A stretch of 64,000 bases of DNA from Hysterangium stoloniferum (taxonomy: Eukaryota; Basidiomycota; Agaricomycetes; Hysterangiales; Hysterangiaceae), in contig WHVD01000004.1 of the NCBI GenBank assembly GCA_015178975.1, forward strand, positions 1,302,001-1,366,000, in the 5' to 3' direction. Each line of letters opens with the position of its first letter. Positions within the stretch are counted from its first letter, which is position 1. The notes beneath the pieces were generated by a model, which saw only the letters and a list, made by a program, of their open reading frames with translations, was not told where the DNA came from and ran no database searches. Shown here in pieces: positions 5,694 through 60,294 of this stretch. The translations under genes and the position numbers were made by a program.

Positions 5694-5725
5694 GGACTTG
5701 GCTTCAGCTTATAGGCTGCACCCTC
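5694..5725 (-). other. Shared LTR hairpin segment (family C)
   Basis: In LTR sense: GGT, one base, CAGC, loop CTATAA, GCTG, AA, GCC, then AAGTCC. One of 13 occurrences of this segment in the window, in LTRs of different families (see findings). Confidence 0.75.
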
Positions 5726-5951
5726 ACAAGATCGTGTTGTCCAATTTCAGACAGGTGGACAGGAATCCCGGGGAGTCCAGGCAGGGGTCGTAGGTTGAGG
5801 GGTCGTAGGTTGGAGGTCGTGAGGTCGTGAGTTGAGATAAGTGAGAGATAGATGCACCAGAGCCCGTGGGCTCCAACTAGTGTGAGTGGTGTAATTCAAG
5901 TAGGAGTTTAGAGTGGGAAATGTATTAGATTACTGGGGGGAATCTAAGCCA

Positions 5952-5962
5952 ATTTTCTGACT
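5952..5962 (-). promoter_or_regulatory. Predicted transcript start / primer 11-mer, family C LTR
   Basis: The minus strand reads AGTCAGAAAAT. The spacing to TATTTAAA (5988-5995) fits a TATA-driven start. The 11-mer is kept in the solo copy (10870-10880, with TATTTAAA at 10837-10844) and in both copies nested near 57.6 and 58.0 kb. Confidence 0.5.
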
Positions 5963-6457
5963 GGATTGTATGTACAACATCTGCCAGTTTAAATAGACTG
6001 TGGAGTGCATGACATACCAAATCCAGTAATGATGAAACGAAACAAGCAAAACATAAAATGGGAATAGTAAACACCAAGTTTGGTGTGTTAGGAATGGGAT
6101 GGAATGGAGCGGAGTCCAAATAGTGACAAATCATAAACCATAACGGGAAATGGAGTGGAAGTGGAGTCTGAATCGTGACAGGTTATTTGACTAAAACAGG
6201 AACGGGGCTCTGTTAGAGGGAAGACAGGTATTCTGAGCGGGGTCTGGTGACTGATGCATGGGACAAGGTCGGACATAGACAGGGACGGAGTCTGGTGGGT
6301 TTTCTGGTGACTGAAACACAATGTAACGAAGTTGAACGTAGACAAGTCTGATGTACAGAGTCCAGTGGGAATTCCGGTAAACTGATAATGGGTGCGTATA
6401 GGGCGCGGGTGTGTATAAGTTAGTGCCCAGAGTCCGGCAGGATTTCCAGTCGTAACA

Positions 6458-7094
6458 TAGAGCAACACTACCAAGGCTACCAAACACAAGATAGAATATA
6501 GAAATATGGAGTGAAGAGGGGACAGCCCAATGACAGGGGAGAACACACTTTGTTTTAGTGGGATTCCTACATAAGAGATTGAAACTAAAGAAATGAGTAT
6601 GTACAGGTCTACTAATTATACTATTTATTTAATATTTATTTAGTATTTTTTATTTATTAGAAATTTGAGAAAAATGCTAAAAATGGCATGTATGCACCCT
6701 ACAGTGCATAGCCATACTTCGGCACTTATGTAAGCCCACCTGGTGCTGTGTAGGCCCATGCAGTGCACCACCACCTGCATAGGTGCCAACTGCATTTGCA
6801 GTGCCGGCACACAAGGAGGCCCCATAGGCACACAGTGCAAAGCACTATGTGTCCATCAGGGTGTAGGTGGCAGCATCACCCTTATGTCAGTGCCATCATT
6901 TGGCTGTGCCACCACTGCATTGTATCACAATGTCACTGCACCACATTGTTGTGTCACTGCACAGCCACTTTTCATTGCACAGCTGCTTTTTGTGTGGGTG
7001 GCAGTGTGATTACGTAATTGCACTCACGCCTTTGCCTGTACTGTTTTGTAGGTGCATAATAAAATAAAATAAAATAAAATCAATATCCTGAACA
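6458..7094 (-). repeat. LTR-like repeat, family H (copy 1)
   Basis: Matches the repeat at 14110-14921, which follows the polypurine-like end of the family-H element and is therefore read as its LTR. In LTR sense it starts TGTTCAGGATATTG near 7094 and soon enters a (TTTTA)n tract (plus strand 7059-7081). It includes a TG/CA-rich stretch (about 6690-7010). No target duplication was found, and the boundary near 6458-6470 is uncertain. Confidence 0.5.
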
Positions 7095-7538
7095 GTTTGT
7101 CTGCTTGTTTCTTGTTTTTTTTCATTCTGGTTACATGGTAATGCTTAGAGTTTATGCAATGCTGTATGTGGTTCTATTTTGATCTTTTCCTTGTTAATCC
7201 CACCACTTCCAATCCCAATCCCTCCCTCACTACATCTTTTGTTTACTGTTAAATATATCTATGAGATGAGATCTCTGCCCCAATCCATCCCCACTGTTGC
7301 TTTTGAATGCTCTTCTTGTTCAGGTTCCTTCCTTTTCTTCCTTTTCTTCCTTTCTTCTCTTTGATGCATCCTGTTCCATTGTGAAAATCTTCAACCCTCA
7401 CTACCCCTTTCATGTCTAGTCTCCCCTCATCCCATTCTCATTCTGCTATCCTTCTTACCTGCAAAGGTTTTTGCACTTCATCCTTCCTTGACATGGATCA
7501 AATGTCTTCAACTATGTCAAATACAAAATCCCTCATTG
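7095..7538. other. Intergenic, no gene recognised
   Basis: A+T-rich, CpG-poor sequence with pyrimidine-rich stretches. No coding signal or repeat boundary was seen. Confidence 0.5.
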
Positions 7539-7914
7539 GAGGATAGTGACAATTCATTGAATATTCAAAATTTTATGGAAAAGTCCTCATATTTCTAATT
7601 GAGACTATTTCCTCTGGCTATGACTATATGTTTTAAAAGTTTATATTTCATTATTGCAAAATTTCATCTTTCAGACTTGTATGCTCCTTTAAAATATGCA
7701 CAAATGTTTATGGATAAACAAGATTTTCTGGGTTATGACTTAATCTTTAGGATAAAAAATATGCCAAGTGGCACTGGCAGCAGATTGCTTTGGCTTGTGG
7801 AAAGGCTATATTGCTGTTGTGTTAAGTTCCCGAAACAAGATAAGTTCTGAGGAAGTCCCACGGAGGTTTCCAGTAATTAATTCTGAACACACTTTCTTCC
7901 AGGAATTGTCCCAG
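7539..7914 (+). repeat. Repeat R1 (copy 1)
   Basis: The part at 7539-7760 matches the reverse complement of about 13860-14110 (shared landmarks: the GAATATTC region, AAATATGCACAAATG and GGTTATGACTTAATCTTT). The two copies are diverged. No coding content was recognised. The remainder up to 7914 is unassigned and ends at the family-A LTR. Confidence 0.5.
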
Positions 7915-8549
7915 TGTGAGAGGGACTGCAAAATATACTCCAAAATATAGTCTGGACGAGCCCACACTATATTTCCATTATTATTTCTATTCCCCTCTCT
8001 ATTTTATTATACACATATATTTAGTTCAACAACCTATGCATTCAGTACATAGACTCTTGTGGGCACATATGTGCCAGACCTATGTATTCTAGTGCCTATA
8101 GTTAGAACTCAGACACTTTTACCCCGAAACCATGACTTGCCCAGACACCCACTTAGTGTCCTGCAAGTTGTGATTGGGGTATCATCTCGACCATCACAGA
8201 TGGGCCTTAACTATCAGTGCAATCACCATTTCAAACTATACTAGTCAAAAATCAAACTGTTATCTCAATCTGCATGGACTACATCCATGCTACTTTGTTT
8301 GACCCTCTTGTTATTTCCTTAATCACTAGAGCAGTCACTCAGAATTGTACTTCAAAGTTGATTCTCTTTCAGTTGTCTTAGCTATCTATTCTACTTATAG
8401 ATAGCTAATCCTTTCAACTGTATTGAACTAGATAGTCAATACACACTTTGGTCTGTATTAGACTTAGATAGTCAATACATTGTCGTGTCGTACCTAAATG
8501 GTCGATATTATTCGTATATAGAATGGTAGAACTTCCACCACTCTTCACA
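7915..8549 (+). repeat. Solo LTR, family A (old copy)
   Basis: 635 bp with intact ends (TGTGAGAG...CTCTTCACA) but strongly diverged from the other A copies. Most differences sit at former CpG sites (CG to TG or CA). The flanking 5-mers CCCAG and CATGG do not match, so either the duplication has decayed or the flanks were rearranged. Confidence 0.85.
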
Positions 8550-9150
8550 CATGGAGTCCCTGGGTAATAGGTCCGAGGAGTTTCCAGGGATTAGTAGTAC
8601 AAGGAGTGTGGTATCAGAATAATTACCAGAAGTGGTACTGCTGAGATGGACTTGGCTTCAGCTTATGGGCTGCGCCCTCATACACTCATTTGGGTGTCCA
8701 TATTTTGAACTGACAGAATGCATACAGGAAGATGTAGATTCTGGAGTTCCTGTGGGAGTTCCAGGAATCGAACATGTAGACAGACAAGAGGACTAGGGAC
8801 TGGATCATGAGGGAGTAACTTGTTTGAGATTCAAACCTAAGTACATGAATATAGGAGACTTATATAGACTGTGAAATGTAATAATACCAAATCCAGTATT
8901 AATGAGAGGCAGAACTATTAAACATAAAATGAAACAAGTAAATACCAAACTAGGTATTAGGGATGGAATGGAATGGGAGCAGAGAACAAATCATGACAGG
9001 TCATTAGACCATAACGGGAACGTGGCTCTGTGAGAGGGGTTCCGGGGAGTCCAGTCAGGGTCCGGTGACTGGTCTGTGAGATACAGAGTGTTGGGTGTAT
9101 AGGGTGGAGTTCAGAGTCTGTGTTATGTATTGTTAGGTTTTTCCAATTTT
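8550..9150 (-). repeat. Decayed LTR, family C-like
   Basis: Retains the shared hairpin segment (8648-8679) and the C-type U3 sequence (the CCAAATCCAGTA region near 8893, then the TAAATACC region, ending in repeated GTCCGGTGACTGG-like units). The start abuts the family-A LTR. Heavily mutated. Confidence 0.65.
8648..8679 (-). other. Shared LTR hairpin segment (C-like)
   Basis: GGACTTGGCTTCAGCTTATG start on the plus strand. Stem CAGC/GCTG retained. Confidence 0.65.
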
Positions 9151-10378
9151 TAACCAATCTCCCCTAACAAATTGATAAAAACAAGATTAAATGTACTTAT
9201 ATTGTGACAGAATTATTGTAAAATAGTCTCCTGAAATTAACTTGAATTATCACAATTTATTTCATATTTTTATCATTTATTTTGGGAGAACTATTGAATT
9301 TCTACTGTTTATTCTTTTTTAGCTAAATATCTTTGAAGTCGCCCTTTTGGGGCTTATTGCACAATGCGTGGGAATATTGTTACATTTCATGACAATTGTC
9401 ATAAACGCGACCCAGCTGTCACAAACGGCTGAATAACAATAATGACATATGGAAACATTGTGACATGCACGGGAAAATTATGTAATCAGCACACGCATGA
9501 AAATCATCAACTTCGTGATGCGTGAGAACATTACATCAGCATACTGTATATGCTACAATGGAAAGTAGTAGAAACTCCTGGAATATTCCAGCAGATTCCA
9601 GGTAAAATAGCTAAAAATAGGTAAAACAAGTAGCTAGAACATTCTCCCATGTCTCAGACTTTACTGTATATAAGGAGCTCTGCTCCACCACTGAAATATA
9701 ACTCAATTTAACTACATTTATCAGCCACATCAGTGTGCCACTGCATCAGCAGTTCTACTCCACCCCCCTAGTTGGGCTGTTGGAGAAATACACACATACA
9801 CTTAGTCACCTCTAGTTGAGCTGCTGACCTAAGCTAACTCAGGATCCATTGTCACCTTTAGTTGAGCTTCTGACATAATAATCCTACCCCCTTGTCACCT
9901 CTAGTTGAGCTTCTGAGAAACAATCTTGTTCCCTTTTGCCACCTCTTAGTTGAGTGGCTGGCTATCCTTTATTACTTATCCACCTCTAGTTGAGTTGTTG
10001 GTTATCAATTAAAGTAATAAATATTTTAGGTTATATTGAGATAAGGAATACATATATTCTAATTTCTACCCGGTTTTTGGCATAAATAAATACTGAGAAT
10101 ATTCTTGCAGAATCCTTAAGACTACATTAAGATCCTGATAAGTTAGTATCACAGTAGACCCTGTAGGTTAGTGTAAATAAAGCATATATTAGCCAAATAG
10201 TGTTTTATTCTATATCTAATCTTTTGACCTGTTTATAAATATTTTTACTGTTTGATAAATAGTATAAAATATATATAAACTAGCTAGAATTGAAGTTAAA
10301 TCTAGCTTCGGAATCAGTAAATTGTTATTCATATTTTAGTAGTTGTTTTTGCAGAAAAAGAACAGCTTGCAAAAGCAG
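9151..10378 (+). repeat. LTR-like promoter region with six spaced repeats
   Basis: Contains a clear TATA box (TATATAAGGAG at about 9668) and, downstream, six copies of a roughly 22-nt motif like CACCTCTAGTTGAGCTGCTG at about 40-46 bp spacing (9766-10005). A TTAGTATCACAG string at about 10146 loosely resembles a copia-type primer site, so this may be a copia LTR with its downstream leader. No terminal repeats were confirmed. The stretch up to the family-C LTR is A+T-rich and unassigned. Confidence 0.4.
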
Positions 10379-11204
10379 TGTTACGACCAGAATTCCCACC
10401 AGACTCCAGGCACTAACTTATACACACCCGTGCCCTAGACACACCCATTATCAGTTTACCGGAATTCCCGCTGGACTCCATACGTCAGCCTTGTCTATAT
10501 TCGTCTTCATTACGTTGTGTTTCAGTCACCAGAAAACCCACTGGACTCCGTTCTGTCTATGTCCGACCTCGTCCCGTGCATCAGTCACCAGACCCCGCTC
10601 AGAAAACCCATCATCCCTCTAACAGAGCCCCATTCCCATTTTAGTCAAATGACCTGTCACGATTTGGACTCCACTCCCACTCCATTTCCCATTATGGTTT
10701 ATGATTTGTCACTATTTGGACTCCACTCCGTTCCATCCCATTCCTAACACCAATTTGGTGTTTACTATTCCCATTTTATGTTTTGCTCGTTTCATTTCAT
10801 TATTACTGGATTCGGTATGACATTTCCTCCATGGTCTATTTAAACTGGCAGATGTTGTACATACAATCCAGTCAGAAAATCGGCTTAGATTCCCCCCAGT
10901 AATCTAATACATTTTCCGCTCTAAAACCCTACTTGATTCATACCACTCGCACTAGTCAGAGCCCACAGGCTCCGGCGTATCTATCTCTCTCACCAGTCTT
11001 GACTCACGACCCACAACCTCCAATCTCAACTCATGACCCACAACCTCCAACCCACAAACCCCACCCAGACTCCCCGGGATTCCCGTCTGCCCATCTGAAA
11101 TTGGACGACACGATCTAGCGAGGGTGCAGCCTATAAGCTGAAGCCAAGTCCTACCAGATATTCTGTGGGTTTCTCCAGAGACCCGCCCTGTACATATCCT
11201 AACA
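10379..11204 (+). repeat. Solo LTR, family C
   Basis: 826 bp from TGTTACGACC to CCTAACA, flanked on both sides by AGCAG, a perfect 5-bp target-site duplication. TATTTAAA at 10837-10844, predicted start 11-mer at 10870-10880, shared hairpin segment at 11118-11151. The well-kept duplication points to a fairly recent insertion. Confidence 0.93.
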
Positions 11205-12989: not shown

Positions 12990-13711
12990 TGTTACGACCA
13001 TGTCGCAACCCTATCGGTCCCAAGGTTATCGCCACTTGTCAACGTTTCAAGTCATCCTCTCGGAAACCATCGGCCCTGAAGCAGATGAATGTTTTCACGA
13101 AGATCAAACTCCGTTTACGCCCACATCAAAATAACTCATATTGTCTGGTCAAACTTTGATATGTCCCCTTTATTATGTTGATCCGTCCAATCTTATGTTT
13201 CGCATATGTCTATCTATATTTGTAGTCCTTGAACTATTTCCTTTTATCGTAATCCCGCTCTCGGTTATCATTGGCCTCCGAACTAATCATAAACTTCCCG
13301 TTCCTAGTCAAGCTTATTGTTAATACCGTGTTCCACCCTTCTCCCCATTAGTATTTTCCAGACACATGTTACTTGTATATGAACCCGCTGTAGTTGTAGT
13401 CACTAGGCAATCAGAATATCGACTCAGAATACCCTCATATGCCTGTATCAGTCTCATACTAAGAATCCCCCCATCCGCCTTCGCGTACGCTTGCCCACTC
13501 CCGGCCCCGACCCCTTGGCCCGACGCTCAACGTGTCCTTCAATTCCAATCGGTATCACGCCGAAAGGTACTCATTAGGATTAGTCTTTGCCTGCCCGAAA
13601 TTTAAGGACATCCTATGGATATTTGCGAGGGCGCAGCACATAAGCTGAAGCCAAGTCCTTCCGATCAGTCCCTGTCGGCCACCGACATTAGTCAGTTTTC
13701 AGTTCTTAACA
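12990..13711 (+). repeat. Solo LTR, family B (copy 1)
   Basis: 722 bp, TGTTACGACC...AGTTCTTAACA, flanked by a perfect AGATT duplication (12985-12989 and 13712-13716). Nearly identical to the copies at 17166-17889 and 41025-41743. Shared hairpin segment at 13625-13658. Confidence 0.95.
13625..13658 (+). other. Shared LTR hairpin segment (family B)
   Basis: GGC, one base, CAGC, loop ACATAA, GCTG, AA, GCC, then AAGTCC. Identical in the other two B copies. Confidence 0.75.
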
Positions 13712-17165: not shown

Positions 17166-17889
17166 TGTTAAGAACTGGAAACTGACTAATGTCGGTGGCC
17201 GACGGGGACCGATCGGAAGGACTTGGCTTCAGCTTATGTGCTGCGCCCTCGCAAATATCCGTAGGTTGTCCTTAAATTTCAGACAGGCGAAGACTTAAAT
17301 CCTAAGAAGAACCTTTCAGCGAGATACCGATCGGAACCGAAGGACAAGTCAAATGTCGGGCCAAGGGATCGGGGCCGAGAGTGGGCGAGCGCACGCGAAG
17401 GCGGAAGGGGGATTCTTCTAGTATGAGACTGCTGCAGACGTATGAGGGTATTCTGAGTCGATATTCTGATTGCCTAGTAACTACAATTACAGCGGGTTCA
17501 TATACAAGTAACAGGCGTCTGGAAAATACTAATGGGGAGAAGGGCGGAACACGGTATTAACAATAAGCTTGACTAGGAACGGGAAGTTTATGATTAGTTC
17601 GGAGGCCGATGATAACCGAGAGCGGGATTACGATAAAAGGAAATGGTTCAAGGACTACAAATATAGATAGACATATGCAAAACATAAGATTGAACAGATC
17701 AACATAATAAAGGGGACGTATCAAAGTTTGACCAGACAATACGAGTTATTTTGACGTGGGCGTAAATGGAGTTTGATCTTCGCGAAACATTCATCAGCTT
17801 CGGTGCCAATGGTTTCCGAGAGGATGACTTGAAACGTTGACAAGTGGCGATAACCTCGGGGCCGATAGGGTTGCGACACGGTCGTAACA
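17166..17889 (-). repeat. Solo LTR, family B (copy 2)
   Basis: 724 bp in reverse orientation, flanked by a perfect CAAAG duplication (17161-17165 and 17890-17894). Inserted in the polymerase region of the family-H element. Shared hairpin segment at 17219-17252. Confidence 0.95.
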
Positions 17890-21664: not shown

Positions 21665-22153
21665 TTCGAAGCATTGTGTATACTTGTGGGTGCACTCAGC
21701 ACCAATTAGAACTCAGACACTTTTTACACCGCAACCACGACTTACCCAGACACCCGTTAGTGTCCTGTAAGTTGTGATTGGTGTATTGTCTCGACCGTCA
21801 CAGACGGGCTTTAGCTACTCATTCAAACTGAGTTTCGAACTGTATCAGTCGAAACTCAATCCCTATCTCAACTCGCATGGACTACATCCACGCTACTCTA
21901 TTATTTGACTCTCTAACTACTCTACTTGCACTCGAGCAGTTGTCCAGAATCGCACTTAACCAGTCGATTCTGCTTATTCGTTCTAGCTATCTACCTTACT
22001 TTAGATAGCTACTTCTCTCTACCGTATTGAACTAAGTAGTCAATACACATTCGGTCCGTATTAGACTTAGACAGTCAATACATTGTGGTATCGTACTTCA
22101 ACGGTTGATATTCTTCATATATAGAACGGTTAGAACTTCTACCACTCTTCACA
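21538..22153 (+). repeat. LTR, family A variant
   Basis: 616 bp. The last 470 bp match other A LTRs closely, but the first 120-140 bp (TGTGAGGAGTATGC...) differ from them. It is preceded by a purine run, GGAAGAGGAG, like a polypurine tract. It may be the 3' LTR of the pol remnant or an LTR shared with the following segment. Confidence 0.8.
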
Positions 22154-22168
22154 AGGAGAGAGGAGTAC

Positions 22169-24079: not shown

Positions 24080-24100
24080 GCTCTTTGACCTGGGGGGCAC

Positions 24101-24729
24101 TGTGAGAGGTATGGTGAAATACACTCAGGAAATATAGTTGGATGAGCTCTTACTATATCTCCTTTATTATTTCTATTTTCTCTCTTTTATTATATCTATA
24201 ATTAGTTCGACGACCTATGTATGCGGTACATCGACTCTTGTGGGCGCACACACGCCAGACTTATGTATTCTAGCACCCGTAGTTTAGAACTCAGACACTT
24301 TTACACCGCAACCACGACTTACTCAGACACCTGTTAGTGTCCTGTAAGTTGTGATTGGTGTATCGTCTCGACCGTCACAGACGGGCTTTAGCTACTCATT
24401 CAATCTGAGTTTCAAACTGTACCAGTCGAAACTCAATCTGTATCTCAACCCACGTGGACTACATCCACGCTACTCTATTATTCGACTCTCTAACTACTCT
24501 ACTTGCACTCGAGCAGTTGTCCAGAATCGCACTTAACAGTTAATTCTACTTGTTCATTCTAGCTATCTACCTTACTTTAGATAGCTACTTCTCTCTACCA
24601 TATTGAACTAAGTAGTCAATACGCGTTCGGTCTGTATTAGACTTAGACAGTCAATACATCGTGGTATTGTACCTAAACGGTCGATATTCTTCGTATATAG
24701 AACGGTTAGAACTTCTACCACTCTTCACA
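24101..24729 (+). repeat. LTR, family A (3' LTR candidate)
   Basis: 629 bp, TGTGAGAGGTATGG...CTCTTCACA, preceded by a G-run (CTGGGGGGCAC) that fits a polypurine tract. Close match to 2870-3500 and 36860-37489. Confidence 0.9.
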
Positions 24730-24861
24730 ATCTGGATCCCTCCCAGAACCTGATTCTCTCTTATAGCATTTCCTGTTTTCACTCTAGCCACTTCACCAAG
24801 CCAGGCCTCTTACCTGCCCTGGAACCAAGGCTCCTCTGAAAATATGCTCACCACCTACACC

Positions 24862-25430
24862 TGTTATAGAACCCAAACTTCCTTCAAAAATATACTTGCT
24901 TATCATTATATATTATTTATCCTTCTAGCACAACCAACCTGTGTTCTGGAACCCTGGGCTACTATTCCCATTGTCCCTGATCATTTTCCTTGGCTATCTC
25001 CTTCCTTTAGGACTATCCCCAAATTACCTGACCTTGTACTTCACAACTAGACCCATTTGTCTATATCTTTGTTCCCATTTTAGCCCACCCTTTGTCCACC
25101 TGATTTGTCATAATACCTGCTCTTGGTATAAATACTGCCATGTAAAATAGTTATACCTCAGCTTGAATATCAACTATGAATCTGGTTCATTCTCTGTCTG
25201 CCTTATTTTGCCTTGGCCCTTGGTTTCCTCTCTTCTTACTATACAAACCTAACTACCCCTTCCTCCTCAGACCTCTCTTCAGGTCCAAAAATATGTCAAG
25301 TCCTTGCCCACCTGAAATTTGGACACTGACAATTCTGCAAGGGCACAGCACATAAGCTGAAGCCAAGTCTTATCTGTTCTCAGTGTACCCTCAGGTGTTT
25401 GGGGCTCCTCTGTGAGCTCAGTCCTTAGTG
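24862..25430 (+). repeat. LTR-like fragment of a further family
   Basis: Begins near TGTTATAGAACCC, has a TATA-like TATAAATA (25126-25133) and the shared hairpin segment at 25337-25370 in the same sense. No clear 3' terminus or duplication. Sequence otherwise unlike families A-D. The short stretch 24730-24861 is unassigned. Confidence 0.45.
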
Positions 25431-25440: not shown

Positions 25441-25663
25441 GTTTTATGCAGTCACATATACAGACACAGAAACAACAGTATATAAATATTGATACATCAC
25501 AGGAAACTTCTTGAAAAGACAATGCCTCTATTTTTTTAGAGAACGGCGAGAGAAAAGAAAGAATATGCAGATGAATGATGCGTGGATGAAAAAGTATGAG
25601 CGGAGGTAGTGACAAAAACAACAGACACAGAGCAAACAAGTCCATTTATTATTTAACCACATC
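25441..25663 (-). other. Conserved 3' flank of kinase gene 1
   Basis: About 220 bp downstream of the stop resemble 61035-61254, downstream of the paralogue (shared AAGAAAGAATATGCAGAT and ACAGTRTATAAAT). Probably the 3' UTR, and it marks the downstream limit of the duplicated segment. Confidence 0.6.
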
Positions 25664-28600
25664 CTACATCCTCGTCGGCGCCTCCTCGTCCGGTTTAAAG
25701 CGCAACTTCGCCAACAAAACAGCATCGACCTCCACATCCGACCAAGTCCTCACAGTCGATATCTTCGTCGCATGCACCGACGACAAATTCGGTGGGTCGC
25801 CCTCATACTCGGGGCCCGCCTGCGCCGAGGGCGACAGCTCCAGATCCGTCGAGAAAATTCCCCAATCCTGGCCCTCGCGGCGATCAGCATAGACATTGAA
25901 ATGCACCTGCCCGTCTGGATGTTCGTGGCTCACGAACAGGCCGTATTCACGTGCCTCCAGTGTGCCGATGACTGCCGTTGTCAGTAACGGGTATTTAGTT
26001 CGGGAAAGAAGAAGAAAAAACCGAAAGGGGGAGGAAGGGGGACGGAGGGATATCAAGGTGAAGGGAGAAAACTCACTTAAGAAGACGTCCTCACGATGAA
26101 GAGCATGCTCGCGTCCATAATACTCCAATATCTCTTGAATATTCTTCTTGAACCACGCCTTCGCCGCATCAATATCGACCATGTACCGATACGTCGTATT
26201 CTCCGTACACAGGTACGCATGCTTGTGTCCGGCACGCAAGGGGTACGCGTACCGCTTCTTGACCGCCCGCGAAAAATCGCCGGCCGCGCCTCGGCTGCTG
26301 AAATCGAGCAGACCCCGGACATACTCCACGCCCATCTGCGCGAAACTCCTCCTCTCGACGTGCGACAGCTGGGCCTCGCGCACGGTGCCGATCTTGTGGA
26401 TAGACGCCATGCTGCGCACCCGCGGGTCTATGGCGAGGGAGGGCGTGAGGGCGTTGAAGAGCGTGATGAAGCTGCCGTGGGGTTTGGAGAGGTAGCCGAC
26501 GGCGCCGATGCGCACGGGACAGGGCTGCCAAAGGGGAAGGTTCACTGATCAGAGAAAAAACAATTATTTTTAGTTAGCCAGGGAAATGACGTTGGGAAAA
26601 AGGACAAGGGAACTATATAACGAGGACATACATGTCGGATGGTGATCGTGCTGCAAATGCAGTCTGTACCGCCTTTCGTCTCTCCGCGCCGCGATCTGTG
26701 GCTCTCGTGGCGCAGGCGACTCGTATCCTCCCCACACTTGATAATCACCCTCCAATGACGATTGTGTTGATGACCAATACGAATCCTTCCGAGAAGGATC
26801 AGGTTTATCTGCACTAGGCGTGACCACCCGTTGTGGAGGCACAATCGCCCCGGGAACAGGCCCATTCAGAGAAACGTACCCCCCCGCATCCATTCCCATA
26901 TCAACGTCTATATAGCAAACAAACATACCACAATTCAGCTTCATCTTCAGTATCCAAAGGGGCCGGTAGCAAGAGCAACAAAATGAAAACCACTCACCCG
27001 GTAACTCCACCGGCGCCATATCCGGACTTTTCATCTTCTTCTGTTCCTGCTCTCTGATCAGCTGCTCCACCCGCGGCTGCGGACTCAACTCGATCCTTCT
27101 CCCCCGCAGCCCCTCAACAAGCTGCCCGAGATCACTCGCCACAGACGCGAAAATCGGCCTCGCAAACTGGCTCCTGCTCCAGCATCGCTCGATGAGGGCC
27201 ACGAGGCCGAATGACACTTCAGGCCGGAAGGGAATTCTGGGGCGCTTGTTATGTTCTGCGGATGGGCAGGCGGTGTAAGTATGGGTATGGGTATGAAAGG
27301 GAGAAAAATGAAGGTCACTGGGGTTTAGTTCCAAAATGCTTGTAAAAGATACAGCGATCTGACTTACCCAGCACGAGCCGCTGAACGGCGTCATCGTCCA
27401 AGGTCTGCCATGGCACCTCCCCATTCGTAAGGATCTCAACGCAGACTATCGCAAAGGCATAGACATCCGCCTCAGGCGTCATCCTACTCTCCCCGTTGAT
27501 CAGTTCCGGCGCCTGCCACCTCAGCGTGCCCCCTACAATAATACAAGAACCATATTTAGAAAATTAATGAATTCCGGATAATATTAAAATTAAAAAATTA
27601 ATGACTCACGAGGTGGCCTTGGTGTTCTACTGAGGCGATAAACCTCGCTTCTTAATTCACTTTGTCCAAAATCGGAAATAACACAGCGCAGTAGATCATC
27701 GATAAGGATGTTATTGGCCTGGCGTATCAATATATTTGTCAAATGTGTCACGTGATTTAGGGAGTCATTAATTATACGTTAGGCGGCTATAGCGTAGATA
27801 TATGAAGATATGACATGCCTTGAGGTCACCATGTAAGACGCCTTGCCTGTGTAGATGAGCCATGCCAATCGCTATCTCCTGCATCATCTGAAGCGGCCCG
27901 GGGCACGCCCTGCGTCCTTTAATATTGTAAGTACCGAAGATTCAGCAGGCTCACAAAAGGAACACCCACCACTACTCCTATCCACGGTCTTGGCCCTCAA
28001 AAACGTCGGAAGATTGCCGTTCTTCATATACGGACTGACAAAGAACCACGGTGGATCGCCCGTCGCACTCGAGGCGCCCAAGAGCTCGAGGACATGCGTA
28101 TGCCTCTCCATCGATGCCCAGATGGAGACCTCGCGGCGGAAGAGGTCCCGCGGCGTGCTCCGTGCGAGGATCTTGATCGCGACGGTGTGCCCGCGCCATG
28201 TCCCTTTGTACACGTCACTGAAGAACCCGATGCCAATTTTGTTCTCGCGGTCGACTTCCCATCTGTTTTTAGCACGGATGGACATCAACACGCAGACAAG
28301 ACAAAAACAACCAAAAGAAAAAAAAAACGGCACCTCGTGATCGTCCACGGCGGCAAACTCTCATCCCCGCCCTCCACCCCGCTCAACCTCCTCAGCGCAT
28401 CCAAGCCACCTTCCAAAAACTCACGGTGGAACGCCGCTTCCTGGTCGGAATCCCACGCAGCAGGTGTCGCTGCTGGCCAGCCACTGCCAGGCGTCGTCGG
28501 CCACAGCGGCGTAGCAGGCGCCGAATACTGCGCGTAGGGCGGTGGTGGCGGCCGATCCGCACCCGACACAGCGGGCCGCGACGCCGCCTCCGCCACCACC

Positions 28601-32737: not shown

Positions 32738-33437
32738 TGTTAAGATCTAAGCTGAGAGAAGGGGGAAGTGCTCTAGTCAGAGGGCCAATGATAGGGAGTG
32801 AGCTAATCGGGGGTAGAGATCGTACTAGTTGGGAAATCCAACTCTATAACCATAGTGGAGCTTGGCTTCAACTTATGTGTTGCACCCTCACACAAACTAT
32901 CAGGGTGCCAGATAGTACAATCTGGACAAATAGTTAACACTTAGCTTAATCAAATAGAGGGTCAAATTACTAACAGTTGAGATAGAGGGTCATGGCTTGC
33001 CTAAAACCACTCTTGAGGGATATGACAGTGATAGGAAGGATGGGAAACTAAGAGAGGCTAATCTAAGTCAATATTTGAACTGAAGAACTGTAGCATACAT
33101 GAAAGGATCTTTATACTACATTGAGATGGGTGATCAGAAGGCTGATCAAATAAGTGAGGTGTAGAAATGGATCAAGGGAGTGATGATGAGGTGGGGAGAT
33201 ATAGAAAAATAATGTATGTTACTTAAGAGGTGATACTAGGTGGCAAATAAGAGTATACAGAGAGATGGAAACAGTGGAATGGGTAGAGTGGAGATGGAAT
33301 GAGGCAGGAGTGTAATATAAACAAGTATTGGGGGAGCTGTGAGGGGTAATGACATGGGTGGAGGTTCCAATAATGAGATAATGAGGGTTCTCTAGTGGGA
33401 AACAAATCACAGAGTCCAAAATGATGGGATCCTAACA
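32738..33437 (-). repeat. Solo LTR, family G
   Basis: 700 bp. On the plus strand it runs TGTTAAGATC...GGATCCTAACA, flanked by a perfect GTCAT duplication (32733-32737 and 33438-33442). The shared hairpin segment is at 32857-32890 with CAAC/GTTG in place of CAGC/GCTG, so the pairing is kept. Few CpG sites remain. Confidence 0.9.
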
Positions 33438-35467: not shown

Positions 35468-36859
35468 AAAAAAAAACTATCTGGGGAGGCATGGATACCA
35501 ACTAAAAGGAGCCAATTACTGGTGCACCTTTGAAGCCACTGGGCATGGTCGACCCAGAATTTTACTTCCTAAGCCCCCAAGTTTCTCTCCAGACAGATCG
35601 ACCCACCTTAGGCCAGGTGGTTTTCACTCAGTTCATCTCCACACATGACCTTAATGTCCCCCGTATAGTATTCCATGACTTTCCCATTACCCTCAAGCTG
35701 CTGAACTCATTGCCGACCCCCATCGCTTTGCGACACATGCTCTCACTGTTTCCCTCCCCTCCTACATTAATATGTGCGGATATGGCCTTCATATGTCACT
35801 CATTATTTCTCAGTTCCCACTCCATCAGTGGAGTATCCTGAAGTTTCTCAGTTTTGTGGCAGAGCAGCTCTTCTGCTCATCACTGCTTCCTGCGCCCGTA
35901 GCGGATATTTCTTCTTCCTCAACACTCATGGCACTTTTCAAAGTTGTGATAAGAGTGAAGATTGAGCCGTATTACGTGAATGTTATTGTCAAGTTGTTGC
36001 CTGTCAGTGTCTCCTTGCAACTGATGCTACATACCTGCTATCATCAAAGGTGAGCCAGTCATCCGTTTATTTAGCAACCCATCTTGTAATCTAACCATAT
36101 CCGTAGCCTCACCCCTTCACGGGTTCTCTCTGGAAGGTGTTGCCTGCCATCCCATACATGCTGGCTCAGAGTGCAATTCCCACAGATGTTATAGATCAGG
36201 TCATCAGTTTGTTCTCCAGTGTTGAACACTCTCTTGAGGCAGAGGCTTGCCCCATGGTTACTTCAAGGTATATCCCCATTCCTTCATTTATGTCCCGGTC
36301 ATTGACAAGCTGCACATTCAGGATCACAGTAACATTCACATGTGTCATAGTTACACCACTTGTGGTAGTGTATCTCCGCTAACCTATTTGGAACATTTGC
36401 CATTCAGCATTGTGCTTTGTGGCATGAGCTGCAGGAATGGTGTTGTTTTGGTTGCTCAAGATCACAGCCATGATTGGATCTAAGTTGCTGAAAGCCATTT
36501 TGGGATGTATCTATACAGTCTCAGTGCACCAGTCGTATTCTCTTGCAGATGACCTCATATCATCCCCCTCCTTGTCCCCATCCTCATGATCTGCAATTTT
36601 ATCACCATTCGCCACGCGTGCATTCAAGCCACAACCAACAGTATCAACATACTGAGCAGAGCACAGCAGGGCACCCCTGAGAACATCAACCAGGACAAGG
36701 ACAATGTTTTCAATTATGAAGAGATCTCCTGGAACATGAGTGCCTCTTCCAATGCCAAGACTATTCTATCCACTGCCACCACCACTGAAGCAGACCCCAC
36801 CCACCCGCCACCACCTACACCGCAGCAGGCCCACCCCATCTGCCACCACTGACACCACC

Positions 36860-37489
36860 TGTGAGAGGTATGGCGAAATACACTCAGGAAATATAGTCGG
36901 ATGAGCTCTTACTATATCTCCTTTATTATTTCTATTTTCTCTCTTTTATTATATCTATAATTAGTTCGACGACCTATGTATGTGGTACATCGACTCTTGT
37001 GGGTGCACACACGCCAGACTTATGTATTCTAGCGCCCGTAGTTTAGAACTCAGACACTTTTTACACCGCAATCACGACTTACTCAGACACCTGTTAGTGT
37101 CCTGTAAGTTGTGATTGGTGTATCATCTCGGCCATCACAGACGGGCTTTAGCTACTCATTCAATCTGAGTTTCGAACTGTACCAGTCGAAACTCAATCCT
37201 TATCTCAACCCGCGTGGACTACATCCACGCTACTCTATTATTCAACTCTCTAACTACTCTACTTGCACTCGAGCAGTCGTCCAGAATTGTACTTAACAGT
37301 CAATTCTACTTATTCGTTCTAGCTATCTACCTTACTTTAGATAGCTACTTCTCTCTACCGTATTGAACTAAGTAGTCAATACGCATTCAGTCTGTATTAG
37401 ACTTAGACAGTCAATACATTGTGGTATCGTACCTAAACGGTCAATATTCTTCGTATATAGAACGGTTAGAACTTCTACCACTCTTCACA
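36860..37489 (+). repeat. Solo LTR, family A
   Basis: 630 bp, TGTGAGAGGTATGG...CTCTTCACA, flanked by CCACC and CCGCC (four of five bases match). Interrupts F unit 1. Close to the copies at 2870 and 24101. Confidence 0.9.
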
Positions 37490-40809: not shown

Positions 40810-42341
40810 TGTTCAGTTGCATGCAGGGCTTAGTGGAGGGTTTCTGGAGAAACCCATGGGTATTCCAGTAGGACTTGGCTTCAGCTTATAGGCTGCACCC
40901 TTGCGAGATCATGGGCTCCAATTTCAGGCAAGCAGACGGGAATCCCGGGGAGTCTGGGAGTATTTGGTGGGTTGAGAGGTCAGAGGGTCAATTGTGGGAA
41001 TCCTGCAGAGGTCAAGGGGTCGGGTGTTACGACCGTGTCGCAACCCTATCGGTCCCGAGGTTATTGCCACTTGTCAACGACAAGTCATCCTCTCGGAAAC
41101 TATCGGCCCCGAAGCTGACGAATGTTTCGCGAAGATCAAACTCCATTTACGCCCACGTCAAAATAACTTGTATTGTCTGGTCAAACTTTGATACGTCCCC
41201 TTTATTATGTTGATCCGTCCAATCTTATGTTTCGCATATGTCTAGCCATATTTGTAGTCCTTGAACTATTTCCTTTTATCGTAATCCCGCTCTCGGTTAT
41301 CATCGGCCTCCGAACTAATCATAAACTTCCCGTTCCTAGTCAAGCTTATTGTTAATACCGTGTTCCGCCCTTCTCCCCATTAGTATTTTCCAGACACCTG
41401 TTACTTGTATATGAACCCGCTGTAGTTGTAGTCACTAGGCAATCAGAATATCGACTCAGAATACCCTCATACGCCTGTATCAGTCTCATACTAAGAATCC
41501 CCCCATCCGCCTTCGCGTGCGCTCGCCCACTCCCGGCCCCGACCCCTTGGCCCGACGCTCGACTCGTCCTTCAATTCCGATCGGTATCATGCCGAAAGGT
41601 ACTCATTAGGATTAGTCTTCGCCCGTCCAAAATTTAAGGACATCCTACAGATATTTGCGAGGGCGCAGCACATAAGCTGAAGCCAAGTCCTTCCAATCGG
41701 TCCCTGTCGGCCACCGACATTAGTCAGTTTTTAGTTCTTAACATCGGGTAGTGATGGGTCAGAGGTTGAGCATTTAAATAGGTCAGAGCCTGTGGGCTCT
41801 GATGAGGTAAATAGCAGTGTGTTTCAAAGAGAGGAATAGAGTGGAAATGTACTGAGATTACTGGGGGAATTTAAGCTGATTTTCTGATTAGATTGTATGT
41901 ACAACATCTGCCAGACTATATAGACTCTGGAATGTATGTATATTATACCAAATCCAGTAATAATGAGATCCAAACAAGTAATCATGAAACGAGATAAGTA
42001 AACACCAAATTAGGTGTTAGGAACTGAATGGAACAGAGGCAGAGTCAAAACATGACAGGTCATTAGACCATAATGGGAATGGGGCTCAGTTAGAGAGCTG
42101 TCAGGTCATCTGGGTGGAGCCTGGTGACTGGTGCATGGAATGGGGTCAGACATAGACAGGCTTTGGTGTGCATGGGTCCTGGTGGGGTCCAGTGACTGAT
42201 GCACGAGAAACAGAGGATTGGGCATAGACAGGCTTGATGTCCAGGTCCCAGTGGGTTTTCTGGTTTAGCTGTAACTTGATATAGCAAGTCAGGTGCATGT
42301 AGGATGGGGTCCGGAGCCTGGCGGGTTTTCCAGTCCTATCA
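40810..42341 (-). repeat. Solo LTR, family C (old), interrupted by LTR B
   Basis: Net length about 810 bp after removing the inserted LTR B and its duplication. In LTR sense it begins TGATAGGACTGG and ends GCATGCAACTGAACA. Flanks TGAAG and TGCAG differ by one base, as expected of an aged duplication. Shared hairpin segment at 40871-40904. Confidence 0.8.
41025..41743 (+). repeat. Solo LTR, family B (copy 3)
   Basis: 719 bp with perfect TCGGG duplications (41020-41024 and 41744-41748), inserted in the older family-C LTR. Hairpin segment at 41657-41690. Confidence 0.95.
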
Positions 42342-55030: not shown

Positions 55031-55627
55031 GTGTTGGAATTGGTGATGAAAACACCCTTTTCTTAGGGGCGGTTCACCCATTTCTTCACTTCTTCATGTG
55101 TAGATGCTAATTGTGGACCATGCATTCTGAGGTTAATGCATGACAGAACCAGTGTACACCTAAACTAGCACCTAACCTATCATGTCAGAAGGTGATTCTC
55201 TAACTGACACATTGATTGACAAACAAGTACTTTTATTACGAGTCTATTACCCCCTTGTAGATTGTGTATTACAATAAGCCAACTCATACTATTTTTAACA
55301 AGTTGTTATCAACTTGAATGTACATCCAGTACCATCTAATATTGTATTCAAGAATTGCCAACAAAAAAAAAATCCCTCCATGCATTTGCTTTAATAAAGG
55401 ACACCTTTCATGAACCATTTTTACAACAGAAACACTGCATTTAATCTCAAACGAGAAAATTGTTGGAAATGGTGATGAAACACCCACCTCTCCAGGTTCA
55501 CCCCTCTCCTTCCCCACTATCCTTGAAAAGCCATATTGTGGACCATATTTTGTGACGCTAATGCATGATTTTACCCATGTACACCCTAAACTATCACCAG
55601 ACCAATTGTATTAGAAGGTGACTCACT
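55031..55627 (+). repeat. Diverged direct repeats flanking family D
   Basis: Two related units of about 170 bp (55031-55210 and 55459-55627) start TGTTGGAAWTGGTGATGAAA and share TTGTGGACCAT, TAATGCATGA and AGAAGGTGA. The second is cut by the family-D element. Could be the remains of an older LTR pair or a tandem repeat. Confidence 0.5.
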
Positions 55628-55919
55628 TGTTATGACCTGTTCCCAGATGTTTCAATATCCGACTTCCGACTTCCAACTACGGAACATCATAGTTACCGTA
55701 TCTTCCGTATTCTTCCCTTGTTCCACATTTAGTAATTTGTCTGTTGACAAGTATTCACTCATTTGTTTATTATATTCCCGTTTCAGAATATTGTCTCCCC
55801 AATTCGTCTTATTGTATTCCCATTCCAGAATACTTCCGTTTCCATCTTATTGTGGTCTTGGTTTGTAGTACAATAACAAGAAGACTTATATTAGTTTCCA
55901 CAAATTTGTACTTTACTTT

Positions 55920-55930
55920 AGATCTGATAT
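55920..55930 (+). promoter_or_regulatory. Predicted transcript start / primer 11-mer, family D LTR
   Basis: AGATCTGATAT, about 27-34 bases after a TATA-like box. It is the exact reverse complement of the 11 bases at 56222-56232. Kept in the 3' LTR copy near 60045. Confidence 0.5.
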
Positions 55931-56110
55931 CGACTTAGTTTCTTATTCCCTCTTCCGTCTTTCTGTATGCTCAATATTCGGAACTATTCAGAACTCTGAA
56001 TATCCATCTTTCTGTATGCTCGATATTTGGAACTCTTTGGAACTCTGAATATCCATATCTTCCAGTGTAAGTCTTGCCTTTGAAATTAAGGACTTCCAAG
56101 CATTTGTGTA

Positions 56111-56142
56111 GAGGTGCAGCACATAAGCTGAAGCCGACATCC
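56111..56142 (+). other. Shared LTR hairpin segment (family D)
   Basis: GAGGTGCAGCACATAAGCTG followed by AAGCC. About 190 bases after the predicted transcript start and 77 bases before the LTR end. Confidence 0.7.
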
Positions 56143-56221
56143 TGACCCTATCTGATAGTTTCCGAATTTCCAGTGACTTTTCAATAGTTCCGGAATAAGT
56201 TCCGACATGGCACTTAACAGT

Positions 56222-56232
56222 ATATCAGATCT
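56222..56232 (+). other. Putative self-priming site, family D
   Basis: ATATCAGATCT, two bases (GT) after the 5' LTR, in place of a TGG-type tRNA site. Complementary to the LTR 11-mer at 55920-55930. Same geometry as in family C. Confidence 0.6.
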
Positions 56233-57654
56233 CAACTCTGTGACTCACTCATCATGGGTCCCAAACGCAAAGCTGCCGAAGGACCATCTCAACTTCAATC
56301 CCCATTGCAACTTTATACCACCCAACCCAAAACCCCAATTCAGCTGACAGCATCAGCTTCCATCAAAGAAGTTACCGAGGTAGCAAAGGATCTCAATGCT
56401 CCCAACCCCCTTCTAACAATGAAGTAGAAGAACAGCCAGCGACATCGAAAAAGAAATCTTCTGATGAACTGACTGAAATGTTGTTTGTCAACTCCATTGT
56501 GAAATTTGCTGACTATTTGAAAACTGCTGAGGAAAGCAAAGAATCATCCCGCACTGGAGTTAAAGAACCCAAACCATTTACCAGCAAGGATCTGAAAAAA
56601 TTGAAGAATTTCCTTCTCCAATGCTATTTCAGTTTCCGTGATCGACCTGCTGCATTTAAATCTGACAGTCGAAAAGTCAATTTCACACTCTCTTATCTCA
56701 AGGATACTGCTCAGGATTGGTTTGAACCCGGACTGTCTGGAATATCCGATGAGACACCCATATGGCTCAACAACTGGGACACCTTATGATCAATCTGGCG
56801 AAGTGGAAAATGAATTAATGATGCTTAAGATGAAGGACAATCAACAAGTCTCTGATTATCTTGTCAAGTTCAATACCCTCACCGCATGGTGTGGTTGGGA
56901 CAATTCTGCCCTCAGGCACCATTTCTATATGGACTTCCATCATGCCTTAAAGACGAGATCTGCAAAGATGGGAAGCCGAAAACTCTCCAACTCATGCAGA
57001 TTAAAGCTCAGACATCCAATGCCCATTATTGGGAACAAAAAGCCGAGGTCTCCTGAGAGAATCTGACAGAATGTTCTCAAAGCAACAAGGCATCGACTAG
57101 CAAGTCTTCCAGCAATAACTCAGGCAATAACTGTTACGGCTGTAATTCCCGCTGGACTCTGGGCACTAACTTATATGCACCTGCGCCCTTACACACCAAT
57201 TGTCAGTTTACTGGAATTCCCACTGGACTCTGTATGTCAGACTTGTCTACATTCAACCTTGTTACGTTGTGTATCACTCACCGGAATACCCACCAGACTC
57301 CATCCCTGTCTATGTCTGACCTCATCCCATGCATCAGTCACCGGACCCTGCTCGGAAAACCCATCATCCCTCTAACAGAGCCCTGTTCCCGTTTTAGTCA
57401 AATGACCTGTCACGATTTGGACTCCACTCCTGCTCCATTTCCCGTTATGGTTTATGATTTGTCACGATTCAGACTCCGCTCCATTCTGTCCCGTTCCTAA
57501 CACCAAATTTGGTGTTTACTATTCTCGTTTTATGTTTTGCTAGTTTCATTTCATTATTACTGGATTTGGTATGTCATTCATTCCACGGTCTATATAGTCT
57601 GGCAGATGTTGTAAATACAATCCAGTCAGAAAATTGGCTTAGATTCCCCCCAGT

Positions 57655-58536
57655 TGTTAGGATACACACACAGGCCAGGTATCCGGAGAAACCCGCGGGA
57701 TATCCAGTAGGACTTGGCTTCAGCTTATAGGCTGCGCCCTTGCTAGATCGTGTTGTCCAATTTCAAACGGACGGACAGGGATCTCGGGGAGTCCGGGCGG
57801 GGTTCGTGGGTCGTAGGTCGTAAGTCAGAGGTCGTGGGTCGTAAGTCAGAGGTCGTGGGTCGTAAGTCAGAGGTCATGGGTCGTAAGTCAGAGGTCATGG
57901 GTCGTAAGTCGAGTTGGTTGAGAGAGATAGATGTGCCGGAGCCCGTGGGCTCCGACTAGTGTGAGCAATGTGAATCGAGTAAGGTTTTAGAGTGGAAAAT
58001 ATTATTAGATTACTGGGGGGAATCTAAGCTAATTTTCTGACTGGATTGTATGTACAACATCTGCCAGTTTATATAGACCATGGAGTGAATGACATACCAA
58101 ATCCAGTAATGGCGAAACAAAACTAACAAAACATGAAATGGGAATAGTAAACACCAAATTGGTGTTAGGGACGGAATGGAACGGAGCAGAGTCCGAATTG
58201 TGACAAAGAATAACCCATAACGGGAAACAGAGCGGGAGCAGAGTCCTAAATCGTGACAGGTCATTTGACTAAAATGGGAACAGGGCTCGATTAGAGAGGT
58301 GACGGGATTCTAAGTGGGGTCCGGTGACTGGTGCGTGGGATGAAGATGGACATAGACAGAGACGGAGTCCGGGGGAAGTCCGATGACTGATATGTGTCAT
58401 ATTGAGGTCAAACGTAACTAGTCTTGATGTAACGGAGTCCGGGCGGGAAATCCTACAAACAGACGATTGGTGCTTGTAGCGTGTGGGGGCGTATGGGTTA
58501 GTGCCCGGAGTCCGGCGGGATTGTCCGGTCGTAACA
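57655..58536 (-). repeat. Solo LTR, family C (inner)
   Basis: 882 bp in the opposite orientation, flanked by perfect CCAGT duplications (57650-57654 and 58537-58541) inside the outer LTR. Longer than its relatives because of tandem 21-bp units at 57808-57915. Hairpin segment at 57710-57743. Confidence 0.93.
57808..57915. repeat. 21-bp tandem repeat in inner LTR C
   Basis: Four to five units of GTAAGTCAGAGGTCGTGGGTC-type sequence. The other C LTRs have only one or two diverged GAGGTCGTG-like units here. Confidence 0.85.
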
Positions 58537-59944
58537 CCAGTAATCTAATACATTTTTTGCTCTAAACTCCTACTTGAATTGAATTACACTGCTCATGCTA
58601 GTCAGAGCCCACAGGCTCCAGCGCATCTATCTCTCTTATCTATCTCGACTCACGACCTCTCGACCTACAACCCCCGACCCACGAACCCCGCCCAGACTCC
58701 CCAGGATTCCTGTCTGCCTGTCTGAAATTGGACGACACAATCTCGCGAGGGCACAGCCTATAAGCTGAAGTGAAGTCCTATCAGATATTCCACGGGTTTC
58801 TCTGGAAACCTGCTTTGTACGTACCCTAACAATAACACTGGCACAAATACTGGCAAATCAAATTCTGATTGGAAAAAAGACAAGAAATCCAACAAGGAAG
58901 AACAGTCAACTTCTGACAAACCCGACATTTCCCACTTGTTGGGTACTGACGGTAAACTCACCCTGAAGGAGAAACAATGATGCATGGATAATGATCTCTG
59001 CCTTTTCTGTGGGAAAGGTGGACACAAGGTTTCCAACTGTACTGTTAAGTCTAACTCTTCCAAGGCCCACACAGCAACTTCCACTATGACTACAACATCC
59101 AAGGAAAAACCCACCACAGAGTTGAAAAAAGAGTAAGCAACCCTCTGGAATCTGCATGGACAGAGGGTTGTGTTGACTCTCTCCGTGTTTCTGAGATTAT
59201 CCATCTCAACACATCTACTCTCTCTAATCCTGACTCACTATTTGTAAACCTCATCTCTGACCTTCTTGGAAATTTAGTGTTCCGAGCTCTGATAGATTCC
59301 AGCTCCACACACTGTTTTGTAAATACCACCTTTGCCACAAAACATAATCTGAAGCTCCATTCTGTTCCCACAATTTCTTTGCATTTGTTTGACGGCACTA
59401 GCAATATGACAATTACTCAAGCCTGCGACATGTCTATCCGGTTCCTGTGTGGAACATCCCAGACAGTTACTTTTCTCGTAACACAGTTGGACTCTAGCTG
59501 TTCGGTAGTTCTTGGATACAACTGGCTCACCCGATATAATCCGTTGATTGACTGGGTATTGGGCAGTATTAATTTCCAGATTCCTGACACTTCCCTTCCT
59601 CCTGCAGCATCTTTTCTGGCCAGAGCCTCTTTGGCCTTGATGGCACTTCCAGCTTCTACCGAAACCTCTGAATCTCCAAAAATCTCTCTCATCAACACTT
59701 CAGCATTTGTTAGGGCAAGTAAACTGGATGGATTGCAGTGTTTTTCGATCAGCTTAAAAGTTGATGAAGCATCTGGATGTTTTCCAGAATTATCCAAGCT
59801 AAAAGCCAACCTGGAAGGAGTTCCCGAAAAATACCATGGTTTTGCAGACATTTTCAGTAAGCAAAAAGCTGACTGGCTTGCACCACATAGGCCTTATGAC
59901 TTAAAAATCAATATTGAGCCCAGTTCAAACCCTCCATTAGGACC

Positions 59945-60294
59945 CATTTCAGAATACTTCCATTTCCGTCTTATTGTGGTCTTGGTTTGTAGTACAATAA
60001 CAAGAAGACTTATCTTAGTTTCTGTGAATTTGTACTTTACTTTAGATCTGATATCGACTTAGTTTCTTATTCCCTCTTCCATCTTTCTGTACACTTGATA
60101 TTCAGAACTCATCGGAACTCTGAATATCTGTATCTTCCAGTGTAAGTCTTGCCTTTAAAATTAAGGACTTTCAAGCATTTGCATAGAGGTGCAGCACATA
60201 AGCTGAAGCCAACATCCTGACCCTATCTGATAGTTTCCAAATTTCTGGTGACTTTCCGATAGTTCTGGAACAAGTTCCGACACGGCACTTAACA
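59945..60294 (+). repeat. LTR, family D (3' LTR, partial)
   Basis: Matches the last 350 bp or so of the 5' LTR, with differences mostly transitions, and ends GGCACTTAACA. Hairpin segment at 60186-60217. Confidence 0.85.

Follow-up and report, generated by a model that had tools for sequence, protein, structure and literature searches.

The question raised by this locus is why a segment of about 32 nt should recur in LTRs whose surrounding sequences appear dissimilar, and what it might do there. In the window, i.e., the whole stretch of 64,000 nt of the Hysterangium stoloniferum genome that was analysed, the segment is present at all 13 positions originally listed, and a search of the window with a covariance model (R1, E <= 1) returned exactly those 13 copies and no others. 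The segment is real and larger than had been described, since GAAAT...GGAC, conserved 19-32 nt upstream of the hairpin segment, and GTCC just 3' of the hairpin also belong to it, so that each copy consists of an outer stem strand (P1), a left arm, a hairpin and the second stem strand (P1'). The family letters used here (A, B, C, D, G, W and H) are our own, and only G surely matches that of the original prediction. Copies of family A lie at 5691-5744 (minus strand, 71.8 bits with R1), 11101-11154 (plus, 68.4 bits, with the LTR end 83 nt from the hairpin start), 40868-40921 (minus, 60.1 bits, two of six outer-stem pairs broken), 57707-57760 (minus, 72.3 bits) and 58728-58781 (plus, 51.2 bits, the sequence having GTG for GCC); those of family B at 13604-13661 (plus, 76.1 bits), 17216-17273 (minus, 76.1 bits) and 41636-41693 (plus, 76.7 bits); and those of family D at 56088-56145 (plus, 33 bits, in the 5' LTR) and 60163-60220 (plus, 32.4 bits). 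Families C, G and W are represented, respectively, at 8645-8701 (minus, 76.1 bits), at 32855-32911 (minus, 54.1 bits, with a CAAC/GTTG stem and two of six outer-stem pairs broken) and, in the 24.9-kb fragment, at 25319-25373 (plus, 61.7 bits).

The same compact and strongly conserved fold recurs at thousands of LTR ends in this genome. The core 19-mer CAGCNNATAAGCTGAAGCC has 8,344 exact matches (4193 + 4151) in the 111-Mb genome, and its reversed control has none (0 + 0) in the same genome-wide exact search. In a set of 264 kb, composed of C1:1-200000 and the window, the 30-mer GGGYGCAGCNNATAAGCTGAAGCCAAGTCC was found at 41 places with up to six mismatches, and its reversed form at none with up to eight. 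YTAACA, an LTR end, is located 60-140 nt past the hairpin start in 32 of the 41 copies versus 235 of 5000 random positions, and the copies that could be classed, i.e., those with recognisable surroundings, are all inside LTRs of this kind.

Concerning this clade, the RT core and integrase of A show 75-80% identity to those of B (80% in the integrase), and the LTRs of the two families still match over 33 nt only, at 94%. A Ty3/Gypsy pol with a chromodomain was found, the pol domains being in family B (which contains Gag, protease, RVT_1 and rve domains) and the chromodomain in a fragment (C1:187-1506, with SH3_Tf2-1 and Chromo) that is 91% identical to A in the integrase. By protein sequence, A, B and D belong together in a single chromovirus clade, in which C, G, W and H may be placed by the shared LTR block only; a sister lineage (61-64% integrase identity) is without the motif. 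The claim that the surrounding LTRs do not align holds for part of the comparisons: of the 15 pairs among A, B, C, D, G and W, eight match only within -5 to +33 of the hairpin start, whereas six (A-C, A-W, B-W, B-D, C-D and C-G) match over longer stretches, with the A-C match also covering about 240 bp of U3, and one, D-G, gave no match around the hairpin start. Since A, B and D belong to one clade, the element looks like an ancestral module that has been kept, rather than a segment recruited by unrelated LTRs.

In the fold, GGAC pairs with the GTCC directly 3' of the hairpin to form P1. Enclosed by P1 are the left arm, which measures 15-19 nt but is longer in H, and a hairpin of the CAGC/GCTG type with loop NNATAA, whose AUAA is invariant or nearly so. 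More letters are kept than pairing needs, and the conserved unpaired ones (GAAGCCAAG) suggest contact with a protein. With one row for each of the seven families, and the alignment register of each set by eye, P1 shows compensated changes at four of six pairs; its paired cells amount to 88.1% versus 76.5% in shuffles (3 of 2000 as high), its doubly changed cells to 6 versus 2.2 (2 of 2000) and its pairs changed on both sides to 4 versus 1.8 (35 of 2000). Over 42 rows, the numbers of paired and of doubly changed cells exceed those of the shuffles (0 of 2000 each), and pairs changed on both sides show no excess (4 versus 3.5, 1015 of 2000 as high). Swapping the strands of P1 between the seven families gave a marginal result, 290 of 5040 permutations being as good. 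As for the sets, A2 comprises 26 of the 41 copies and two of family H, and A3 and R1 comprise 22; the 15 copies left out of A2 are mostly near-duplicates, together with those having a damaged outer stem (40871, 32858, C1:51367 and C1:159380), a deletion (C1:56129) or a truncation (C1:58297). The 42 rows correspond to 40 copies and two of H, C1:58297 being the only one of the six damaged copies left out.

The covariation of the hairpin is real and rests on two family-level events. The CAAC/GTTG stem of family G, with pairing kept as had been proposed, has 417 exact cores, and family H carries a compensated transversion. Pair 2 altered on both sides was found in three matches, all CTGC/GCAG (reversed control, 0 + 1); for pair 1 altered on both sides, a search that demanded GG and AAGCCAAG gave two matches, neither of which restores the pair, and pair 3 as Y-R gave none. 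The reported change of GGC/GCC pairs to G-U wobbles is present; it is a C-to-T change in CpG (GGCG/GGTG) that also occurs within A and within B, and it is weak evidence for pairing. Compensatory changes that would support the GGY/GCC pairs are absent from the alignment of copies. Folded in isolation, all seven families form P1 partly or wholly together with three or four hairpin pairs, with mild stability (z from -0.57 to -2.82); in the leader of family G that was folded, the hairpin has a probability of at most 0.02. On the whole, the idea of an RNA structure is supported by the between-family covariation of the outer stem and by the compensated changes of the hairpin, which are of two kinds. 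A known RNA family was rejected, nothing being above the Rfam gathering score: Rfam gave no matches in the window and, in L001:1400-1700, one below-threshold match to SNORD49 (11.4 bits versus a gathering score of 37). The viral collections gave no matches to the element, and the prokaryote collections gave two bacterial ones without flanks, which is about the number expected by chance according to our estimate.

In the self-priming of Tf1/sushi elements, RNase H cleavage occurs after nucleotide 11. Four families (A, B, D and G) have a 5' LTR junction that can be read, and in the one copy examined of each, the predicted RNA 5' end is complementary at 11 of 11 nt to a site just after the LTR, and this putative primer-binding site starts after two bases in each case and changes together with the self-primer between families. 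In family D, the predicted 5' end at 55920-55930 (plus strand) forms 11 of 11 Watson-Crick pairs with the primer-binding site at 56222-56232 (plus), two bases past the LTR end at 56219, and the same self-primer sequence recurs in a second LTR at 60044-60054 (plus). A reading of CTATAAG as a TATA box was rejected for family A, since its TATA box is placed 269 nt before the hairpin, with the self-primer 33 nt past the start of that box. On the basis of the complementarity, the self-primer explains the site that follows the LTR, and A, B, D and G appear to self-prime from the predicted RNA 5' end. In all four, with one copy each, the hairpin sits between the predicted 5' end (192-236 nt after it) and the primer-binding site, 83-128 nt before the LTR end, and at 870 places genome-wide the 3' half of the hairpin is followed 38-68 nt on by TAACAGTAT (reversed control, 0). 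A sister element, F (C1:160094-167796), in which the element was not found, shows, on inspection by eye, a self-primer complementary at 10 of 11 nt; since F seems to self-prime without it, self-priming as such does not require the element.

The reading that we favour, with a probability of about one half, is that of a clade-specific cis-acting element of the leader RNA that would aid self-primed reverse transcription or packaging. Such an element would be located in U5, within the 5' leader of self-priming Ty3/Gypsy chromoviruses that form one clade, and, among the roles originally suggested, its location within the predicted transcribed leader of apparent self-primers (four checked families) favours those in packaging or reverse transcription. 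In the packaged RNA, it might help to bring the 5' end onto its binding site for priming or, alternatively, might be a mark recognised by Gag or reverse transcriptase. The fold thus probably helps the RNA to be copied or packaged, and is less likely to be a host site that was recruited independently.

Tentatively, the left arm might also pair with what immediately follows the primer-binding site, forming a duplex like one of those in the Tf1 'pretzel'. In a shuffle test made after the matches had been seen, the 12 pairs of family A were equalled by 2 of 2000 shuffles, and those of B, G and D by 36, 65 and 998 of 2000, which for D is the level of chance; family swaps were as good in 2 of 24 cases. 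In A, B, D and G alike, the best U5 window for this pairing begins at -16 to -9 relative to the hairpin, composition explaining much of its position in B and D (257 and 182 of 300), and the product of the positional chances is about 0.01, post hoc. On the 5' flank of the primer-binding site, the best duplexes have -2.2 to -5.7 kcal/mol. This possible duplex with the left arm is strong only in family A. A doubtful extension of the favoured reading is an RNA switch, in which the left arm would alternate between the local three-way fold closed by P1 and the duplex past the primer-binding site, so that the leader would either serve for reading and packaging or open up for priming; families would then keep the switch by co-evolving left arm, outer stem and post-primer-binding-site sequence.

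Other explanations have to be weighed against this. If the segment were in R, the hairpin with its AUAA loop might position cleavage and polyadenylation in the 3' LTR, as the near-fixed distance to the LTR end and the constancy of AUAA would suggest; this seems unlikely, since the core is without AAUAAA and covariation of the outer stem is not expected on this reading, to which may be added, as a weak point, that none of the three A-runs of at least 12 in the 264 kb follows a recognisable LTR fragment; poly(A) mapping from them yielded no usable site. The conservation of letters beyond pairing needs might also point to DNA, i.e., to a downstream promoter or enhancer site where a dimeric protein reads the inverted repeat, and the intermediates, tested as a sign of the RNA strand, leave RNA unsupported, with 67 G.U versus 90 A.C changes and A.C not rarer. 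However, RNA is the better fit for three features, namely the transversion in H with its compensation, the outer stem in family G and the variable length of the left arm, and we consider a DNA site improbable.

The conserved unpaired letters, together with a hairpin start 119-142 nt before the first ATG past the LTR in A, B and D, would also suit a 5'-leader element to which a host factor binds and which serves the export, stability or translation of the RNA. This seems unlikely, given that all classable copies are in LTRs of this kind and that no copy with up to eight mismatches occurs in the 65 kb from C1:82075 to C1:147596. Least probable is the slow decay of recently shared LTR sequence with no selected function: the relatedness of the A and B proteins is in its favour, but their LTR match has shrunk to those 33 nt at high identity, and the changes in P1 are compensated. 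The more than 8,000 exact cores, the several families and the 870 junctions from hairpin to primer-binding site in one genome represent a natural mutational series, which could test which RNA structure self-priming or packaging needs.

As regards known systems, Lin and Levin reportedly described in 1998 a retroviral and Tf1 U5-IR stem-loop, in which U5 is said to pair with sequence beside the primer-binding site. The element resembles it as a U5 RNA structure tied to the initiation of reverse transcription and differs in that P1 and the hairpin are wholly within the LTR, which is reportedly not so in U5-IR. The conserved motifs of LTRs include their ends, AATAAA, a GT-rich stretch and the TATA box (PMC3601003); the ends (TGTTR...YAACA) and the TATA box recur here, whereas a U5 hairpin module is absent from the motifs named in the part of that work considered. 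The self-priming of Tf1 needs leader structure (PMC10085805). As far as the portions consulted go, it is in Tf1 that self-priming has been worked out, other self-priming elements being described mostly from predicted folds. Like Tf1/sushi (PMC10085805, PMC7175516), the families described here appear to combine a Ty3/Gypsy pol with a chromodomain, a self-primer of 11 nt where the RNA is predicted to begin, a primer-binding site just past the LTR and a structured U5 in between; they also possess a stem-hairpin module conserved in its letters between families, which the portions of these accounts consulted do not describe. In the Tf1 'pretzel', as presented there, there are three duplexes, two of which join the flanks of the primer-binding site to LTR sequence located past the self-primer; in contrast, the element folds on its own, and duplexes with the flanks of the primer-binding site are only suggestive. 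Lastly, the 5' leader of Ty1 contains a pseudoknot needed for efficient reverse transcription (PMC4974528); as presented in the part of that study consulted, it is likewise a leader structure of an LTR retrotransposon, with the difference that Ty1 is tRNA-primed and its pseudoknot is long-range.

All 13 copies of the segment of about 32 nt predicted in the window are present on checking the sequence, and R1, a covariance model of the element built from 22 rows, recovers exactly these 13 copies at E<=1 in a search of the window. In the whole assembly (111.1 Mb, 554 contigs), which harbors chromodomain-bearing Ty3/Gypsy elements, the core CAGCNNATAAGCTGAAGCC has 8,344 exact matches, its reversed control having none. 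A reading frame for eukaryotic elongation factor 2 and factor matches split into pieces, as introns would leave them, suggest together with these elements that the genome is that of a filamentous fungus. The titles and opening lines of abstracts covered by a literature search describe no such module.

The alignment of 40 of the 41 copies found in the window and in C1:1-200000 revealed a conserved block larger than originally reported: GAAAT starts 25-32 nt upstream of the hairpin, GGAC comes 1-4 nt after it, and a left arm 15-19 nt long separates GGAC from GGGYGCARCNNATAAGYTGAAGCCAAGTCC; a GTCC located 3' of the hairpin is complementary to the upstream GGAC. Family H lacks GAAAT. The resulting outer stem of six pairs (P1) reads AAGGAC/GTCCTT in family B, ATGGAC/GTCCAT in C, TGGAGC/GCTCCA in G, TTGGAC/GTCTTA in W (the 24.9-kb fragment), GAGGAC/GTTCTA in H, TTGGAC/GTCCTA, with one U.U mismatch, in A, and AAGGAC/GTCCTG in one copy of D, the other three having one more mismatch (A.C). 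Downstream of the hairpin, before the LTR end, families A (GGGTTTCTCCGGAAACCC) and B (GTCGGCCACCGAC) carry inverted repeats specific to each family. Another LTR-like repeat, about 631 bp long (CTGTGAGA...TCTTCACA; window 2870-3500, 7912-8549, 21706-22153, 24100-24729 and 36859-37489) is devoid of the element, and a dispersed 3-kb repeat pair, 77% identical, occupies window 25442-28455 and 61044-63973.

With one row per family, P1 has 88.1% paired cells vs 76.5% after shuffling (3 of 2000 shuffles as high), 6 doubly changed cells vs 2.2 (2/2000) and both-sided change at four of the six pairs vs 1.8 (35/2000). Over 42 rows, paired cells (86.1% vs 76.2%) and doubly changed cells (29 vs 9.9) lie above all 2000 shuffles, and the number of pairs with both-sided change does not exceed them (1015/2000). 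One to three P1 pairs are broken beyond the family pattern in 4/40 copies (40871, 32858, C1:51367 and C1:159380). The covariation proposed for the hairpin itself holds for two of its seven pairs. The both-sided change predicted in family G (G-C to A-U) is borne out by 417 exact cores genome-wide, vs 67 and 90 for the single-change intermediates, and belongs to this family wherever the flanks were inspected; the other, A-U to U-A in family H, has 3 matches, two of them near-identical (reversed control 0+1). The G-U wobbles in GGC/GCC do exist, yet GGY/GCC varies by C-to-T at CpG alone, and these pairs are absent from the isolated predicted fold in C, D and G. Family H (extracted sequences L038-L040) is rare and distant, with a CTGC/GCAG stem, a longer left arm and 3 exact cores in the genome.

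The surrounding LTRs had been described as not aligning; this is true of 8 of the 15 family pairs, which match only at -5 to +33 of the hairpin start, but 6 match over longer stretches, and one pair has no match around the hairpin start. Identity between A and B is 80% in integrase and 75-77% in the RT core. In the protease part the A-B values are 59.6% and 48.8%, D shares 59.5% with B, and the value for F is 38%; the integrase identity of F is 61-64%. This pol comparison (protein data for A, B, D and F) places A, B and D in one clade. No R1 match occurs in the F LTRs, i.e., the motif is absent, and the simplest history would be a single gain of the motif after the split from F. The LTRs of this sister element (about 430 bp, TGTCA...TGACA) lie at C1:160094-160522 and 167365-167796 (positions 94-522 and 7365-7796 of the extracted sequence L025); F has an apparent self-primer (10/11 match, judged by eye) and no hairpin element, thus representing a natural control. 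At window 55819-60296, a family D copy consists of a 5' LTR, gag and protease, and its protease part is immediately followed by the second LTR; the interval between its two LTRs gave no match to RT core, RNase H or integrase, and two family A LTR copies lie within this copy in opposite orientations.

Self-priming was assessed in families A, B, G and D (one copy each), the four whose 5' LTR junction could be read. In all of them the LTR end (...TAACA) is followed by GT and an 11-nt site whose perfect reverse complement lies within the same LTR (AGTCAGAAAAT in A, AATCAGAATAT in B, AGTTCTAATAT in G and AGATCTGATAT in D). The stretch within the LTR starts 30-33 nt past the first base of a TATA box (TATTTAA, TATATG or TATAAA; the weaker TATATTAG in D). 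In A and G a second conserved motif, RRCTTAGATTNCCCCC, begins at nt 13 of the predicted RNA, one base past the self-primer; the B and D LTRs contain it in altered form. The 3' half of the hairpin is joined to TAACAGTAT 38-68 nt further on at 870 places in the genome (reversed control 0). In these four families the element is expected to be part of the transcript and to lie in the 5' leader, between the self-primer and the primer-binding site (PBS).

Since Tf1 is described as requiring two further duplexes between PBS-flanking and LTR sequences (PMC10085805), such pairing was looked for, and the left arm was complementary to sequence starting about 3-7 nt past the PBS. In family A the match comprises 12 pairs with one bulge (2/2000 shuffles as good); the corresponding values are 36/2000 in B, 65/2000 in G and 998/2000 in D, and 2 of 24 partner swaps between families pair as well. 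In each of the four families the U5 window that pairs best begins between -16 and -9 from the hairpin; shuffled partners place it at -18 to -8 in 31, 257, 55 and 182 of 300 cases for A, B, G and D, respectively, the product of chances being about 0.01 in this post hoc test. In predicted whole-leader folds, CAGC/GCTG has a probability of at least 0.90 in A, B and D, and in the mutated G copy the stem at this position reaches at most 0.02. When primer and PBS are paired, the GGY/GCC value in A drops from 0.99 to 0.11; family B gives 0.23-0.27 and family D 0.82-0.83. According to PMC7175516, the first 11 bases of the Tf1 RNA pair with its own PBS; families A, B, G and D show the same marks of Tf1-type self-priming, including an 11-nt complementarity between the predicted RNA 5' end and the PBS.
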